This document shows, piece by piece, positions 22,753 to 37,664 of a stretch of DNA of 43,330 nt. The DNA comes from a virus. The DNA lies in IMG/VR virus record IMGVR_UViG_3300010332_000003, positions 1 through 43,330 of that record. One strand, given 5' to 3'. Made by a program: the position numbers and the translations under genes. The notes beneath the pieces are model-generated. The model saw only the letters and a list, made by a program, of their open reading frames with translations, ran no database searches and was not told the DNA's origin. Position 1 is the stretch's first letter, and each line of letters opens with the position of its first letter.

Positions 22753-23119
22753 CCTTACGGATCCTTACGCTTATTGGAAAAGTCCTTCCAGTTTTTGAAG
22801 ACGCCTCGGTCCATTTCATAGACAGGAGATTTCAAAAAAGGGACTGGAATGCGTAAGCTGTTGCAGGATAAGGAGTTATAGCCTTACGCTTCCTTACGGA
22901 TTCTTACCTCACGTGTTTTCTGTAAGTCTTTGTAGGACAAGGAGTTATAGAAACCTTACGGATCCTTACGCTTTAATGTAACTTTTTAATGAATTTTGGC
23001 TTGAAAACATATAGAGATTATGCAAACCGGTAAGGATCGGTAAGGATTTTGTAAAGCTTTGTAAAACAAGGAGTTATAGAAAAAGCGTGAGGTAAGGATA
23101 GGTAAGGAAGCGTAAGGTT
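22753..23119 (+). repeat. Phased 10-bp iterons with orientation switch (candidate replication origin)
   Basis: Units of CCTTACGGAT (variants CCTTACGCTT, TCTTACCTCA) are set in blocks with a strict 10-bp period, so all lie on one face of the helix: two from 22753, three from 22882, two from 22954; then in the opposite orientation GGTAAGGATC-type units, two from 23029 and three from 23090. The three-unit blocks (22882-22913 and 23086-23117) are inverted copies matching at 29 of 32 positions. Such arrays bind initiator or partition proteins. The site has no gene and precedes the early genes. Confidence 0.75.
22786..22849 (+). other. Imperfect hairpin after the last late gene
   Basis: TTCCAGTTTTTGAA (22786-22799) can pair with TTCAAAAAAGGGACTGGAA (22831-22849) with a small bulge (GGG). 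The loop is about 31 nt. It is not followed by a T tract. It sits between the first two iteron blocks and may be a late-transcript terminator, or part of the origin structure. Confidence 0.35.
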
Positions 23120-23148
23120 ATAAGGCTTTGTAGGATAAGGAGTTACAG
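22861..23148 (+). repeat. Four direct copies of a 21-25 bp repeat ending AAGGAGTTATAG
   Basis: Copies at 22861-22881, 22928-22950, 23056-23079 and 23125-23148 share GYTTTGTAGGAYAAGGAGTTA followed by YAG, with the first and third more diverged. The AAGGAG core begins at 22870, 22939, 23068 and 23137, giving spacings of 69, 129 and 69 bp. They alternate with the iteron blocks. Although AAGGAG looks like an SD, no open frame follows any copy, so they are more likely protein-binding or strand-opening sites of the origin. Confidence 0.7.
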
Positions 23149-23197
23149 TCTGGGGTTTTGCCGGTCCCCGGAGGGGAGAGGCGGATAGGAGGGGGCG

Positions 23198-23259: not shown

Positions 23260-23320
23260 AACCGGTTTTTTCAAAAAATTTTTAAAAACCTTTTAAAAAA
23301 CGCGGATATAAAGTAATATC
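23260..23320 (+). other. A/T-rich tract (DNA-unwinding or UP-element candidate)
   Basis: This stretch contains the longest A and T runs in the window (TTTTTTCAAAAAATTTTT, CCTTTTAAAAAA) followed by GGATATAAAGTAATATC. It separates the palindromes from the hairpin leader. It may be the melting element of the origin or an A-tract upstream element of the early promoter. No gene is present. Confidence 0.4.
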
Positions 23321-23328
23321 AGAAGGAA

Positions 23329-23395
23329 GAGGCGATCCAGTTAGTTTTCCGCTCCCGCTAACTGGATCGCCTCGGGTATTTTATATGGGAGCGGA
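23329..23395 (+). promoter_or_regulatory. 16-bp hairpin with loop-to-leader pairing (pseudoknot 1)
   Basis: The arms 23329-23344 and 23358-23373 pair perfectly (16 bp). The 13-nt loop TTTTCCGCTCCCG contains TCCGCTCCC (23348-23356), fully complementary to GGGAGCGGA at 23387-23395, 13 nt after the stem and 6 nt before the SD AAGGAG (23402-23407) of the next gene. Forming this 9-bp second helix gives a pseudoknot beside the ribosome site. The same plan recurs at 23964-24022. Confidence 0.65.
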
Positions 23396-23414
23396 GAAAT
23401 TAAGGAGTCTCATC

Positions 23415-23600
23415 ATGATCGACGAAGCAAGGTTAGAGAAACTGCTGGACAAGGTTGAACTGTTCTTGGATCGGCAAAACCGCCTGCTAGAACGGTTGGA
23501 ACCGTTCTTTGTAAAGTGGGCGGAGACAGTCGAAGAGATGCTAGAAGAAGAGAAGCATCTCTTCGACCGAAGTGTGGAAGAGGAGGAGCTGGCTGAGTAA
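23415..23600 (+). CDS. Small helical protein, first early gene (61 aa)
   Basis: A charged helical protein: MIDEARLEKLLDKVELFLDR, then RLLERLEPFFVKWAE and an acidic end EEEELAE. Heptad Leu/Val spacing suggests a coiled coil and a dimer. The start at 23415 is chosen because AAGGAG is 7 nt upstream; the in-frame ATG at 23385 lies in the pseudoknot pairing region. Its stop codon sits in the tetraloop of the next hairpin. Unrecognised; as the first gene after the origin it could be an early regulator or host-takeover protein. Confidence 0.6.
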   Translation: MIDEARLEKLLDKVELFLDRQNRLLERLEPFFVKWAETVEEMLEEEKHLFDRSVEEEELAE

Positions 23601-23614
23601 TCAGCCAGCTCCTC
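23583..23614 (+). promoter_or_regulatory. 14-bp intergenic hairpin with GTAA tetraloop enclosing a stop codon
   Basis: Perfect 14-bp stem (23583-23596 with 23601-23614) closed by a GUAA (GNRA-type) loop. The stop codon TAA of the upstream gene lies inside the loop. No T tract follows, so it is not a standard terminator; it may protect or process the mRNA, or couple termination with the next gene, whose SD TTGGAGG starts about 10 nt later. Confidence 0.6.
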
Positions 23615-23637
23615 TAATGTATATTGGAGGTGAAAAA

Positions 23638-23973
23638 ATGTTAGCATTAGAGAAAAGTGCGAGAGTGAAGGTATTAATTGACATCTTAGCTACGAGAGCG
23701 CATTTCCCTCTGGACAAGGATCTCTTGAAGGTTCAAGGCTTCCTGGCTGAGAAGGGGGAGGAGTTAATGGAAGCAGCCAGGAAGCCGGATGTAAAAGGAG
23801 TTCTTAAACTGGGGAAGGAGCTTCTGGATTTCCTTCCTCAGTTAGAGAAATGGAAGAAGGACAGGATTTGGGAAGAAGTGGTCTTTCATTTACAACAGGA
23901 GCTGGTAGATCTCCAGCGCATACCAAGAAGCTGGATATACCACTACCCGCTGAATGTCGTATACGGAGATTAG
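23638..23973 (+). CDS. Hypothetical early protein (111 aa)
   Basis: A helical protein: MLALEKSARVKVLIDILATR, then GFLAEKGEELMEAARKP, VLKLGKELLDFLPQL, and a C-terminus WIYHYPLNVVYGD that is less charged. SD GGAGGTG lies 7 nt before ATG 23638. Strong structures flank it: a 14-bp hairpin before, and pseudoknot 2 whose 5' arm contains its own stop codon. Function unknown. Confidence 0.6.
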   Translation: MLALEKSARVKVLIDILATRAHFPLDKDLLKVQGFLAEKGEELMEAARKPDVKGVLKLGKELLDFLPQLEKWKKDRIWEEVVFHLQQELVDLQRIPRSWIYHYPLNVVYGD

Positions 23974-24022
23974 CTGCTTGTCCGTCCCTGGCAGCTAATC
24001 TCCGTGGTATATACAGGGACGG
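23964..24022 (+). promoter_or_regulatory. 14-bp hairpin with loop-to-leader pairing (pseudoknot 2)
   Basis: Arms 23964-23977 and 23991-24004 pair perfectly (14 bp); GTATA (23959-23963) and TATAC (24010-24014) can extend the stem. The 13-nt loop TTGTCCGTCCCTG contains CCGTCCCTG (23982-23990), complementary over 9 bp to CAGGGACGG (24014-24022), 9 nt after the stem and just before the SD GGAAGGAG. Loop length, pairing length and position match pseudoknot 1, while most stem bases differ, so the structure is kept with different sequence. Confidence 0.65.
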
Positions 24023-24037
24023 GGAAGGAGAGCAAAG

Positions 24038-24352
24038 ATGGATGAGAGGTTGAAGAGAACAGCAGTGCTTGTGGGAGACCTGTGTGCTTTCTCGTCTGAC
24101 GATAGTGCAGCAGAAGCAATAGTTGCTGGATTGCGGAGTGAGAAAGATGCGCTTGTTGCAGCTGCAGAAGAGCTTCTGCGCGGACAGAAAGAGAAAGCAA
24201 ATACCGTGATAGAGAAGGCGCGTAAGATTTCAGTTCTCGGCGCAGCTCTTGCAGAGCTGCAAGAGGGAGACGATACGATCGCGCATGTAGAGCAAGCGTT
24301 AGAGCTTGAGCTGAATAAACTGCGTTCTTGGGCATATAGGGAAAGAGTTTAG
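24038..24352 (+). CDS. Hypothetical early protein (104 aa), paralog of 25040-25324
   Basis: All-helical: MDERLKRTAVLVGDLCAF, AEELLRGQKEKANTVIEK, VLGAALAELQEGDDT. It aligns with the product of 25040-25324 over most of its length (ER-[VL]-KR, V-x-[QD]-LC, an AAAEE-x2-RG or similar middle, VL-x2-AL, and a final E-x2-K-[LI] ), so the two are probably diverged copies. SD GGAAGGAG. Its role is unknown. Confidence 0.55.
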   Translation: MDERLKRTAVLVGDLCAFSSDDSAAEAIVAGLRSEKDALVAAAEELLRGQKEKANTVIEKARKISVLGAALAELQEGDDTIAHVEQALELELNKLRSWAYRERV

Positions 24353-24358
24353 TTTTTC

Positions 24359-24424
24359 GGGGAGCGGTATATGTCGTATATTGAAGTGACATATACCGCT
24401 CCCCTTAGTTATCTATTTTTTGTT
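24359..24424 (+). promoter_or_regulatory. 17-bp intergenic hairpin plus conserved 19-nt tail (copy 1)
   Basis: Arms 24359-24375 and 24388-24404 pair perfectly (17 bp) with a 12-nt loop. The stem contains GCGGTATATGTC. It is followed by TAGTTATCTATTTTTTGTT (24406-24424), identical to the tail of the hairpin at 24962. The T run lies 10 nt from the stem, too far for a standard terminator. The next SD GGAAGGAG comes directly after. The repeat suggests a control element for two early genes. Confidence 0.55.
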
Positions 24425-24685: not shown

Positions 24686-24956
24686 GCCAAAACAAATTTT
24701 CGGGTTGAAGCCGGATATTGTCGCAGCATTACCTAGGGAAGGTTACACTTATATCGTCACTTTCAAAGTACGGGGGGATAAGAGTGGCGATTTCGTTGTA
24801 TATGACACATTTCATGCCGCCTCCAAGGAAGAGGCTTTAGAGAAAGTTTCGGAGGCGGTAGTATATTTGATGTCGCAAGACTCTACGTACAATGTTTGCA
24901 TCAAGCGGGTGACTGCCTGGGAGATAGACAGAGCCCGCTTGATGCTCGGTAAATGA
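24678..24956 (+). CDS. Hypothetical early protein with a small alpha/beta domain (92 aa)
   Basis: Residues about 20-65 read YTYIVTFKVRGDKSGDF, a strand pair, then FHAASKEEALEKVSEAV, a helix starting with the A-S-x-x-E-A-L pattern. This strand-strand-helix unit occurs in several other genes here (31765, 41015, 41350) and in many phage proteins. The end (VCIKRVTAWEIDRARLMLGK) adds a strand and helix. It is probably a small binding or regulatory protein; function unknown. Confidence 0.55.
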   Translation: MAEPKQIFGLKPDIVAALPREGYTYIVTFKVRGDKSGDFVVYDTFHAASKEEALEKVSEAVVYLMSQDSTYNVCIKRVTAWEIDRARLMLGK

Positions 24957-24961
24957 GTACA

Positions 24962-25017
24962 TGGGCGGTATATGTCCTGTGTGGCATATACCGCCCACTA
25001 GTTATCTATTTTTTGTT
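24962..25017 (+). promoter_or_regulatory. Intergenic hairpin plus conserved 19-nt tail (copy 2)
   Basis: Arms 24962-24974 and 24985-24997 pair perfectly (13 bp, 15 with a T-G and a C-G inside) and contain GGCGGTATATG, shared with copy 1. The tail TAGTTATCTATTTTTTGTT (24999-25017) is identical to copy 1. The loop piece TCCTGT (24975-24980) can pair with ACAGGA (25035-25040) at the start codon of the next gene, a weaker version of the pseudoknots seen upstream. Confidence 0.55.
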
Positions 25018-25039: not shown

Positions 25040-25324
25040 ATGCTGTTACAGGAGAGAGTCAAGCGTATAGGATCGATAGTTGACCAGTTATGTTCCTTGC
25101 TACCAGACTTCTATACCTTTGTGCGGCTGAAGCAACTGCTTCAACACGAATACGACGGTCTGAAGAGAGCAGCTGCTGAGGAAGAGCGTGGGAAGGTATA
25201 TTCGCATGCGAAGGGTATGGAAGTATTAGCTTCGGCGCTCTCGTACTTTGCAGCGAGGGAGAAAGACGAAGCAGCTTGTTTCGTGGTGGATGCTCTTCGC
25301 GTCGAGATTTCGAAGATCTTTTGA
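25040..25324 (+). CDS. Hypothetical early protein (94 aa), paralog of 24038-24352
   Basis: Helical: MLLQERVKRIGSIVDQLC, AAAEEERGKVYSHAKGMEVL and ACFVVDALRVEISKIF. It is a likely diverged copy of the product of 24038-24352. The start at 25040 follows AGGGAGGAG; the longer in-frame start at 24953 would run through the hairpin and is rejected. Function unknown. Confidence 0.55.
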   Translation: MLLQERVKRIGSIVDQLCSLLPDFYTFVRLKQLLQHEYDGLKRAAAEEERGKVYSHAKGMEVLASALSYFAAREKDEAACFVVDALRVEISKIF

Positions 25325-26359: not shown

Positions 26360-27007
26360 ATGATAGAAGTACCAGAAGAGGGTAAGTATGTAGTTCTGCT
26401 CTCCGGAGGTTTAGATTCGACAACTCTCCTATACTACCTCAGATCTCTCAACTACAGAGTACATGCTCTGATCGTCTCGTATGGTCAAATGCATTTCAAG
26501 GAGACGCTCATAGCTTCTCTCCTCTGCAAAAATCTAAATCAGCCTTACACCCTTTTGAGAGTGTCAGGGTTGAAGACATGGACGAAAGTAGTAGAAGGAG
26601 AGTATACCCCGGAGAACACAAAGGCGATGACAGTACCTTTCCGCAATAGTATATTTCTGCTGCACGCAGCGAACCTAGCTGTGTCGTTAGGATGGAGACA
26701 TGTAGCATACGCAGCACACAAAGGAGATGCTCCATATCCTGATTGCACTGCAGAGTATGTATATGCGATGAAGACTCTCCTGGAGCTTGCTCATCACGAA
26801 CCTATCACATTAGAAGCTCCCTTCTTAGGTGCGACGAAGGGAGAGATAGTTCAACTAGGAGCAAAACTGGGAGTTCCTCTTGAGAGGACGTGGAGCTGTT
26901 ACAAAGGAGGAGATAAGCACTGTGGTAAATGCCCGACATGCCTGGAGAGGAAGAAAGCATTCGAGGAAGCTGGCATTGACGACTTGACGGAGTATGAGCA
27001 TGTTTGA
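26360..27007 (+). CDS. queC: 7-cyano-7-deazaguanine (preQ0) synthase
   Basis: A 215-residue QueC. It turns 7-carboxy-7-deazaguanine into preQ0 using ATP and ammonia. The ATP pyrophosphatase loop SGGLDS is at residues 15-20, followed by the family YGQMH (41-45). The zinc site is four cysteines, 180, 188, 191 and 194 (SCYKGGDKHCGKCPTC), and the family end 'eR..aF..ag..D' is present (ERKKAFEEAGIDD). The other preQ0 genes are 8-10 kb away (queD, queE, folE). It overlaps the next gene by 8 nt. A second, altered QueC lies at 39418. Confidence 0.93.
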   Translation: MIEVPEEGKYVVLLSGGLDSTTLLYYLRSLNYRVHALIVSYGQMHFKETLIASLLCKNLNQPYTLLRVSGLKTWTKVVEGEYTPENTKAMTVPFRNSIFLLHAANLAVSLGWRHVAYAAHKGDAPYPDCTAEYVYAMKTLLELAHHEPITLEAPFLGATKGEIVQLGAKLGVPLERTWSCYKGGDKHCGKCPTCLERKKAFEEAGIDDLTEYEHV

Positions 27008-35398: not shown

Positions 35399-35752
35399 AT
35401 GAGGTTCTATTGTAAAGTTACGGGTACATTTGATGCTGCACACTCCATAAAAGGATATGAAGGGAAGTGCGGACAGCTACATGGTCACACCTGGAAGGTA
35501 ACCGTATATGTAGAAGAGAATGCGGAGATCGTATGCGAGAACGGCTATGACGTAGACCTTTCGCAGCTGAAGGCGGATCTGAGAGAAGTCCTCGAAGAGA
35601 TGGATCACCGGGATCTAAATTACCTCTTTAGTAAACCGACAGCGGAGAACATAGCAAGGCGAGTATTTCGAGCACTGTACCGCAAATATAATATATTCAA
35701 GGTAGAAGTAGAAGAGACCCCAGGAAGCGGAGTGATCTTCACCAATGATTAA
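35399..35752 (+). CDS. queD: 6-carboxytetrahydropterin synthase
   Basis: A 117-residue QueD of normal length. It converts dihydroneopterin triphosphate into 6-carboxy-tetrahydropterin. Metal and catalytic features: FDAAHSIKGYEGKCGQLHGH has the zinc His residues (AAH, HGH) and the catalytic Cys of GKC; DHRDLN and PTAENIAR are family motifs; the end VEVEETPGSG is typical. It overlaps queE by 8 nt and lies in the row queD-queE-folE-dpdA. Confidence 0.95.
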   Translation: MRFYCKVTGTFDAAHSIKGYEGKCGQLHGHTWKVTVYVEENAEIVCENGYDVDLSQLKADLREVLEEMDHRDLNYLFSKPTAENIARRVFRALYRKYNIFKVEVEETPGSGVIFTND

Positions 35753-36314
35753 GATGCATGAAATCTTCACGAGCGTACAGTTTGAAGGGAGTAAATACGG
35801 AACGCCTTCCCAGTTCTATAGGTTCTGGGGATGCAACCTGAAGTGCGAGGATTGCGACACTCCACAAGAGGAGTGGGATTGGTTTCCCTTCGAGCCGGAG
35901 TGGGCACGTCCGCGGTGGAAGCATGTCGTCATCACAGGAGGAGAGCCGACTATACAGGCGGACGGTTTGCTTGCATTAGTCAAAGTTCTGCTGAAGAACG
36001 GGCACAGCGTACAGGTAGAAACAAACGGAACTCACCCACGAATACTCGAGCTACTTCCTGACGAAGTCTTCATCACGGTCTCTCCGAAAAAGGGATCGAG
36101 AGGAGATGCTATAACCTTGGCAGATGAGGTGAAGATCGTTCCTGGCATGAGCCCTGAGACTTTCATCGAACAGGCTCTGGAGAAAGACAAACCCGTCTTC
36201 ATACAGCCAAATGCGATGCACGAGGACGGGTTAGAGGAAGCTATACAGTATATCAAGAAGTACCCGGACGCAAGGTTGAGTATACAGGTACATAAGTTAT
36301 TAGGATGGAGGTGA
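35745..36314 (+). CDS. queE: 7-carboxy-7-deazaguanine synthase (radical SAM)
   Basis: A 189-residue radical SAM enzyme. It rearranges 6-carboxytetrahydropterin into 7-carboxy-7-deazaguanine. HEIFTSVQFEGSKYGTPSQF is the family opening; the cluster motif C-x3-C-x2-C is in FWGCNLKCEDCDTP; SAM contacts are in HVVITGGEPTIQ and VETNGT; and the end IQVHKLLGWR is a QueE signature. It is on the short side for the family, as in other phage forms. Confidence 0.94.
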   Translation: MIKMHEIFTSVQFEGSKYGTPSQFYRFWGCNLKCEDCDTPQEEWDWFPFEPEWARPRWKHVVITGGEPTIQADGLLALVKVLLKNGHSVQVETNGTHPRILELLPDEVFITVSPKKGSRGDAITLADEVKIVPGMSPETFIEQALEKDKPVFIQPNAMHEDGLEEAIQYIKKYPDARLSIQVHKLLGWR

Positions 36315-36316
36315 CC

Positions 36317-36904
36317 ATGGACGGCAAAGATATCCTCAATAAGTGGAACAACATTCCGCTAGGCGATGTCATGATTGGAGCGGGAGAGGATCTTGAAGCC
36401 GATGACGTTTTGAAGACGCCGGACAGGTTCCTCTCCGCTTTGCAGGAGATGATCGCAGGCTATGAGCAAGACCCTCTGGAGATAGCCACTTCGGCTGTCT
36501 TTCCCTTCGAAGAAGGGTCACCGTATGTAGTTGTGCGGGATATAGACTTCATGTCTATATGCCGCCATCATCTGCTGCCCATCATCGGGGTAGCTCACGT
36601 AGGATACAAGGTGAATGAGAGCGTGATAGGACTATCAAAAATCCCGAGAGTGGTTGAAGCGTGGGCACGTAGATTGCAGGTACAGGAGAAGATGACCGAG
36701 GAGATCGCAGACACAATAGACCAGGCGATAAACCCGGAAGGTCTCCTGGTCGTAGTAGAAGGAAGACACCTGTGCTGCACAGGAAGAGGAATAAAGAAGA
36801 CCCACGCTACAATGGTCACAGCAGCAGAAAGAGGTGAAGTCGATAGCTTTTTAAGGAGGCTCGTCTGTGGATGTATGTCTAATCGTTCCTCCCGCTCATA
36901 TTGA
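36317..36904 (+). CDS. folE: GTP cyclohydrolase I
   Basis: A 195-residue FolE. It opens GTP to dihydroneopterin triphosphate, the first step of preQ0 synthesis. Features: KTPDRFLSALQEM, the zinc Cys/His in IDFMSICRHHLLP, VIGLSKIPRVVEAWARRLQV, and the second zinc Cys in VEGRHLCCTGRGIKK. It is not QueF: the sequence keeps the FolE GLSK/R-x-[VA] helix and the two Cys and His of the zinc site. The ATG at 36317 follows GGAGG; one at 36305 is less well placed. Overlaps dpdA by 38 nt. Confidence 0.93.
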   Translation: MDGKDILNKWNNIPLGDVMIGAGEDLEADDVLKTPDRFLSALQEMIAGYEQDPLEIATSAVFPFEEGSPYVVVRDIDFMSICRHHLLPIIGVAHVGYKVNESVIGLSKIPRVVEAWARRLQVQEKMTEEIADTIDQAINPEGLLVVVEGRHLCCTGRGIKKTHATMVTAAERGEVDSFLRRLVCGCMSNRSSRSY

Positions 36905-37664
36905 GGTCACGCGAGCGTTCCAGGGTAGATTTTGTATAGGAAGCGTGGCTCTCCGAAATCGCAGGTACAGGGATTTCTTCCGGTACGCTGCGAGAGAGGA
37001 GGGTCTTATTGTCATCCTGGACAATGGAGAGTATGAAGGAGAGAGGCTATCGGACGATGACTTGCTCCGCTTGGCAGACTACATTGATGCTTCTCTCGTC
37101 GTCGCACCTGACAGGATCGGCTGTCCAGCATGGGAGAATTTGAAGATGCAGCTTGCATTTCAAAGGAAGTGTCAGCGTCCGACAATGTTTGTAGGACAGC
37201 TCAACCCTGAAGGCGGCGAAGAGGAGAGAAGAGCTTTCTTCGAAACCTTCCAGATAGCACTGGACGCATTCCCGGCAGTGTCCATAGGGCCGAAGGCGGT
37301 TTCGTGGCTCTACGGGAAGGATCCGGTCAGAGATGACTCTAACAGATGTAAATGTCAGTTCGACTTCTGGCTGCGGCAGATACCGCACAGCAACTATGTA
37401 CACTTCTTGGGTTTAGACGATGAGTATATGTGGCTTCAGTACTGGAAGACACCTAATTCAGTAGATACAGCGTCTCTCTTCTGGCAGGTGATGGAAGCCT
37501 CCGTCGAGGAATTGCCATATCTCTTTGACGAAGAAGGCTTCCACTCCCGCCGGAGGAGACCAGAAAATTATTTCGAGAAGGAATATGAGATGACGACGGT
37601 GAAGAGAAGAGCGCTGGAGAGGCTCTTCTCTTTAGTTCATCACTACGCACTTGGAGAAGAGTGA
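36867..37664 (+). CDS. dpdA: DNA-guanine transglycosylase-like protein
   Basis: A 265-residue member of the tRNA-guanine transglycosylase superfamily in the phage DpdA size class, much shorter than TGT (about 370). It exchanges guanine in DNA for a 7-deazaguanine base. Motifs: ILDNGEYEG (50-58), VVAPDRIG (78-85), FVGQLNP (108-114), VSIGPKAV (138-145), YVHFLGLDD (177-185) and NSVDTAS (197-203). The acids in DNG and PD are the likely catalytic pair. It starts at GTG 36867 with SD TTAAGGAGG. It lies after folE and before the DNA polymerase. Confidence 0.88.
   Translation: MDVCLIVPPAHIEVTRAFQGRFCIGSVALRNRRYRDFFRYAAREEGLIVILDNGEYEGERLSDDDLLRLADYIDASLVVAPDRIGCPAWENLKMQLAFQRKCQRPTMFVGQLNPEGGEEERRAFFETFQIALDAFPAVSIGPKAVSWLYGKDPVRDDSNRCKCQFDFWLRQIPHSNYVHFLGLDDEYMWLQYWKTPNSVDTASLFWQVMEASVEELPYLFDEEGFHSRRRRPENYFEKEYEMTTVKRRALERLFSLVHHYALGEE

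Follow-up and report, generated by a model that had tools for sequence, protein, structure and literature searches.

Why should two leaders of one phage genome carry the same elaborate base-pairing plan in different letters, and what might that plan do for the genes behind it? The question was raised by the window, the whole 43-kb virus record analyzed here (43,330 nucleotides of IMGVR_UViG_3300010332_000003), which encodes TerL, portal, capsid, DNA polymerase A, an SNF2 helicase, a PD-(D/E)XK nuclease, QueC, and uracil-DNA glycosylase. Phage leader pseudoknots and 5' stem stabilizers are already known; new here is a variant with an added helix, in two copies in one genome. Two sequence-diverged knots in one early operon provide a compact test of pseudoknots as phage leader modules, and the same pair also tests why these early genes follow strong stems. 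The two pseudoknots look like real, selected structures, and their mechanism can only be inferred.

A sequence-only reading of this DNA had described look-alike stems, each with a 13-nt loop of which 9 nt pair downstream, and a rescan confirmed this design at both sites. The stems, which had been given as 14–16 bp with copy 2 starting at 23964, were indeed perfect, with lengths of 16 bp in copy 1 (arms 23329–23344/23358–23373) and 15 bp in copy 2 (arms 23963–23977/23991–24005), and they gain U-G pairs at the ends (Table 1). In the loop of copy 1, TTTTCCGCTCCCG, nt 4–12 (TCCGCTCCC) are complementary to 23387–23395, and this pairing can be extended to 12 bp with one G-U, S2 then reaching 23398. 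In the loop of copy 2, TTGTCCGTCCCTG, nt 5–13 are complementary to 24014–24022. The claimed agreement in pairing length and position held for the 9 nt in each copy, but the two 9-nt segments are one nt out of register, and the S2 common to both is 8 bp (loop nt 5–12). In this common register, S1 has 17 pairs including the loop-closing U·G, L1 has 3 nt, and there is no L2. L3 opens with GGUAU in both copies and is 13 nt long in copy 1 and 8 nt (8–9) in copy 2; by our estimate, the latter would be near the steric limit for spanning about 17 pairs. The fold had also been said to end directly before an SD. Copy 2 nearly abuts its SD, but that of copy 1 lies 6 nt past the 9-nt segment; from the last pair of the 8-bp S2 to the start of the SD there are 8 nt in copy 1 (23394 to 23402) and 3 nt in copy 2 (24022 to 24025). 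The proposed loop consensus TTxTCCGxxCCxG amounted to exact agreement at 9 of 13 positions, with a permutation p of 0.016. In each copy 8–9 bp of loop pairing lie outside the loop's own hairpin, as in an H-type pseudoknot, and both sites are predicted to follow the same H-type plan on the coding strand, in 5' leaders of early-gene mRNA.

Table 1. Predicted features of the early region (window coordinates)
Feature	Position	Strand	Remarks
Promoter-like block AACGCGGATATAAAGTAATATCAGAAGGA	23299..23327	+	about 23/28 positions shared with the relative (L039 2725–2753)
-10-like TAATAT	23314..23319	+	inside the promoter-like block
Copy 1, stem S1 and 13-nt loop	23329..23373	+	16 bp Watson-Crick and loop-closing U-G
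Copy 1, S2 5' strand (inside loop)	23349..23356	+	CCGCTCCC
Copy 1, S2 3' strand	23387..23394	+	GGGAGCGG
SD AAGGAG, gene A	23402..23407	+	
Gene A	23415..23600	+	61 aa, acidic, no known family
14-bp stem, GTAA loop	23583..23614	+	spans the gene A stop codon, 23 nt 5' of the gene B ATG
Gene B	23638..23973	+	111 aa; stop codon inside the copy 2 5' arm
Copy 2, stem S1 and 13-nt loop	23962..24006	+	15 bp Watson-Crick and two U-G
Copy 2, S2 5' strand (inside loop)	23982..23989	+	CCGTCCCT
Copy 2, S2 3' strand	24015..24022	+	AGGGACGG; 9 bp if 24014 is included
SD AAGGAG, gene C	24025..24030	+	
Gene C	24038..24352	+	104 aa, no family match; paralog of gene F
17-bp stem (19 with G-U) before gene D	24359..24404	+	no pseudoknot pairing
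13–14-bp stem before gene F	24962..24997	+	GCGGTATATGTC and tail AGTTATCTATTTTTTGTT in common with the 24359 stem

Structures of this kind were rare in randomized DNA. The window contained 10 stems of at least 12 bp against 0.05 per 43 kb in 40 dinucleotide shuffles, none of which gave a stem of at least 10 bp with a 6-nt match between loop and downstream sequence, and the summed helix energies were -45.8 kcal/mol for copy 1 and -42.9 kcal/mol for copy 2 against -22.7 for the best of 12 shuffled genomes; these shuffle figures are not a probability, and the two tested sequences are themselves the source of the structure. The next-best structure within the window reached -24.3 kcal/mol, and across 628 kb of sequence from other phages the closest score was -41.0, with an S2 of just 6 bp. 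The loops were also specific: each can pair 9 nt with the segment that follows its own stem, but no more than 6 with the leader of any other predicted gene.

When the copies were aligned with the helices ungapped, 14 of 25 pairs differed on both sides and none was broken, a pattern of compensatory change that comes from just two sequences of one genome. The wobble pairs flanking the perfect stems favored the + strand (8, versus 2 on the - strand), a modest sign of selection on the sense RNA. All predicted genes nearby run rightward, and no convincing - strand gene was found near the copies among the predicted open reading frames. The earlier proposal that different letters with the same pairing plan argue for selection on structure was thus well supported, by the compensatory pairs and by the sense-strand wobbles.

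Just upstream of the early genes lies a 94-nt, 80% inverted repeat (22876–22969/23030–23123) with GTAAGGAT iteron-like units. Inside and around it, at 22866–23151, are direct repeats of the TTTGTAGGAYAAGGAGTTATAG type, four in number and spaced 69/129/69, and this repeat region is likely a replication origin. Perfect inverted repeats of 12–14 bp also occur within the coding sequences of genes A, B, and E (23529–23567, 23737–23786, and 24898–24945), where a leader function does not explain them. These intragenic repeats and the 94-nt repeat would suit a DNA-level feature near the origin, such as a cruciform, single-strand initiation hairpins, or template-switching inverted repeats. We regard this as very unlikely for the two copies: a mutation bias would not be expected to yield one plan twice over with 14 compensatory differences, the wobble ends favor sense RNA, and the positions are tied to SDs.

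Further copies were sought in related DNA. TerL was the only query that recovered a true relative, IMGVR_UViG_3300032069_000014 (55.6 kb), which is syntenic with the window and shares 57% identity in TerL, 52% in the portal protein, and about 51% in the polymerase. No close relative came from searches with the tail, capsid, portal, or helicase proteins, DNA polymerase and QueC led to distant records only, and blastn against phages gave no match. The two copies were also combined into a covariance model, which detected nothing convincing either in the other loci searched (678 kb including the window) or in 12 complete records. A DNA pattern of loop, L3, and S2 returned four chance hits, all without stems, and a 6-nt loop match in another locus (L021) lay in a terminator-like hairpin that follows a RecA-like gene; this match was within chance.

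The relative and the window have the same gene order: tail genes, a repeat-rich non-coding stretch, small early genes, and the helicase. Just 5' of the first early gene both carry the block ACGCGG..TA.A.AG.TAATA..AGAAGGA, surrounded by non-coding DNA that is otherwise unalignable between them. On the strength of these two genomes we read the promoter-like block as a putative early promoter, with transcription expected to start at about 23325–23328. Copy 1 begins 2 nt past the block, directly behind it, so that the early transcript probably starts at copy 1 or no more than a few nt away; the assignment of the structures to leaders of early genes is likely on the same ground. No equivalent block was found 5' of copy 2. 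The relative has an 8-bp plain hairpin at the end of the shared block, and the pseudoknot is absent from this corresponding site.

Strong stems are not confined to the two copies. Of 10 short intergenic gaps in the window, 8 contain stems of 12–17 bp, located 8–42 nt 5' of the next ATG, and three gaps in the early region of the relative carry stems of 11–16 Watson-Crick pairs unrelated in sequence to those of the window. Since both genomes carry such stems in unrelated letters, the stem before the SD appears to be kept while its sequence changes, a wider architecture to which both pseudoknots belong. The leaders of genes D (24359–24424) and F (24962–25017) form a related pair, with stem letters in common and an identical tail, and genes C and F (25040–25324) are paralogous to each other (shuffle z 12.6). 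From these relationships the early genes look like cassettes, each with its own structured leader, of which the pseudoknots would be the most elaborate form. The relative, which lacks the pseudoknot but carries other stems at the corresponding places, suggests a broader role in mRNA architecture. A 6-nt loop pairing in the 24962 leader was judged to be chance. Separately, the octamer GGGAGCGG is present at 9 sites where 2 would be expected (23387, 24360, 30923, 30988, and five others), often in stems before SDs.

What the leaders do was considered from their position. The existence, non-randomness, compensatory differences, position, and shared architecture of both pseudoknots were all computed, whereas the transcript start, formation in vivo, and a protective role are our inferences. 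The reading that we favor, with somewhat less than even confidence, is cis-acting protection of the mRNA end combined with insulation of the SD, where the ribosome footprint begins. S1 (17 pairs) and S2 (8–9 pairs) would probably form a single stacked rod of about 25 pairs. From what is generally known of initiation, this rod would end at the upstream edge of the footprint of the initiating ribosome, leaving the SD and the start codon outside the fold. Copy 1 would shield the transcript 5' end from 5'-end-dependent or 5'-to-3' decay, and copy 2 would do likewise for the gene C portion of the message once the mRNA has been cut or degraded within gene B; both would prevent the SD from base-pairing with G-rich stretches of the leader. 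Protection and insulation are favored because they fit the position, the sequence variability, and the other stems in the same role.

Stabilization of mRNA by 5'-terminal stem-loops is established in Escherichia coli and Bacillus subtilis, according to references 92–95 and 109 of PMC3997798. The stem-loops of ompA, papA, and aprE likewise place a strong structure near the 5' end, 5' of an open SD; these are plain hairpins, whereas the phage leaders add a helix between loop and leader. They are the nearest precedent for the preferred mechanism, by analogy with which stabilization by the phage leaders is putative. The position near a 5' end rests, for copy 1, on the block that ends just before it, a site deduced from two genomes, and copy 2 has no such block. 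Protection leaves the exact loop pairing and the partly shared loop letters unexplained, because a plain stem would suffice.

The structures had also been proposed to be a switch or protein-binding leader controlling translation. An early-gene leader is likely, as noted, but no modeled alternative fold hid the SD selectively: its accessibility was 0.34 with S2 absent, 0.36 with S2 formed, and 0.39 with the S1 5' arm occupied in copy 1, and 0.66, 0.80, and 0.60, respectively, in copy 2. Because accessibility was nearly unchanged between states, a simple SD-masking switch is not favored. We consider a ligand-sensing switch or an RNA thermometer masking the SD highly improbable; riboswitches do include pseudoknots and the phage has QueC and other queuosine-type genes, but the stem letters are not conserved, and Rfam covariance models (preQ1 and other riboswitch and leader families) gave no match at the gathering score, with hits of E<=5 far below threshold.

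The main rival to mRNA protection is a protein-binding operator, in which a phage or host protein would bind UUxU, CCG at the S2 end, and GGUAU in both leaders and repress genes A and C together. The loop and L3 letters are partly shared, so that a common binding factor is conceivable: the loops are more alike than S1, in which only 6 of 17 pairs agree, and GGUAU recurs at the start of L3. There is also a precedent in T4, whose gp32 acts on its own leader pseudoknot 67 nt 5' of the start codon. The gene 32 operator of T4, T2, and RB69 is, like both copies, an H-type pseudoknot in a phage mRNA leader 5' of the SD, and it is the nearest functional precedent. It is a single copy, however, and is followed by an A+U-rich binding track, whereas here a fold with an S1 of 17 pairs reaches to or near the SD and occurs twice, before unrelated small genes; these genes, A and C, are not recognizable as encoding a single-stranded DNA-binding protein, both being without family match. 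With just two copies of marginal loop likeness, no candidate binder among the window proteins, and no pseudoknot in the relative, we hold the operator to be possible but rather unlikely.

About equally doubtful, in our view, is a duplicated leader whose stem drifts freely while loop, L3, and geometry are kept, the knot being read by a trans-acting factor or stalling a 5'-to-3' exonuclease as viral xrRNAs do. A factor that recognized the knot would imply a small post-transcriptional regulon of early genes.

Cleavage offers another reading, in which the rod of about 25 pairs would be cut by an RNase III-type enzyme and the early mRNAs separated. The T7 early region provides the same setting of structured sites in a leader and between early genes, and the window has many long near-perfect stems. 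The T7 sites are without the pseudoknot plan, however, and the same scan found no stem of at least 12 perfect bp in the T7 early region, so that the motif type differs; moreover, the other window stems are just 12–17 bp and cutting does not require a pseudoknot. Such processing is therefore unlikely. Still less likely is an element of the nascent RNA that would act on RNA polymerase, by put-like antitermination or by attenuation, and let it pass the terminator-like stems downstream. Two copies in the early operon with such stems after them (24359, 24962, and 26307) would suit it, but the 24359 and 24962 stems have no U-tract at their base, and an end of the pseudoknot at or near the SD in both copies would be needless for it. 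Neither are the copies themselves intrinsic terminators: their stems are followed by GGGTATTTTATAT and GTATATAC rather than by a U-tract, and a terminator scan of the window did not list them. A frameshift pseudoknot was rejected, as copy 1 has no upstream gene and no slippery site was seen before copy 2.

Two further phage systems resemble the leaders in layout. The SAS/ESAS elements of Cluster K mycobacteriophages include 17-bp inverted repeats with a 4–13-bp spacer just 5' of start sites, and the ESAS arms have a common consensus with RNA pairing unsupported, so that the authors favor DNA-binding proteins (PMC3203893). As here, inverted repeats precede non-structural phage genes with wide gaps, which makes these elements the nearest in layout; here, in contrast, the arms have different sequences but pair exactly, and there is a second helix. 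The 13-bp GGGATAGGAGCCC that the Cluster K elements share at starts was absent, on inspection by eye, around the gene A and gene C starts. Thermus phage P23-45 likewise has many small genes with strong stems between them, but most of its intergenic hairpins are terminators with a U-tract, and the starts after them have no clear SD. Its gp62 leader (L043, 34346 down to 34282) contains a 15-bp stem with a possible 6-nt loop pairing right before the SD; this candidate knot was rejected, its loop pairing being within chance and P74-26 keeping the hairpin but not the knot.

Other parts of the two genomes showed features of their own. In the window, 26360–27007 and 35399–37664 contain QueC, identified by Pfam, and QueD-, QueE-, FolE-, and DpdA-like genes, assigned by sequence, which are syntenic in the relative; this gene set suggests 7-deazaguanine DNA modification in the phage. 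In the relative (L039 2324–2583 and L040 8315–8400), a 116-nt repeat with an 18–19-bp inverted repeat (ATTCTATGATCTCTAGAT) occurs twice, and the inverted repeat recurs a third time far downstream; these may be origin or replication signals. An early gene of the relative (L039 3225–3776) contains about 17 tandem 18-nt repeats, which encode hexapeptide-type repeats.
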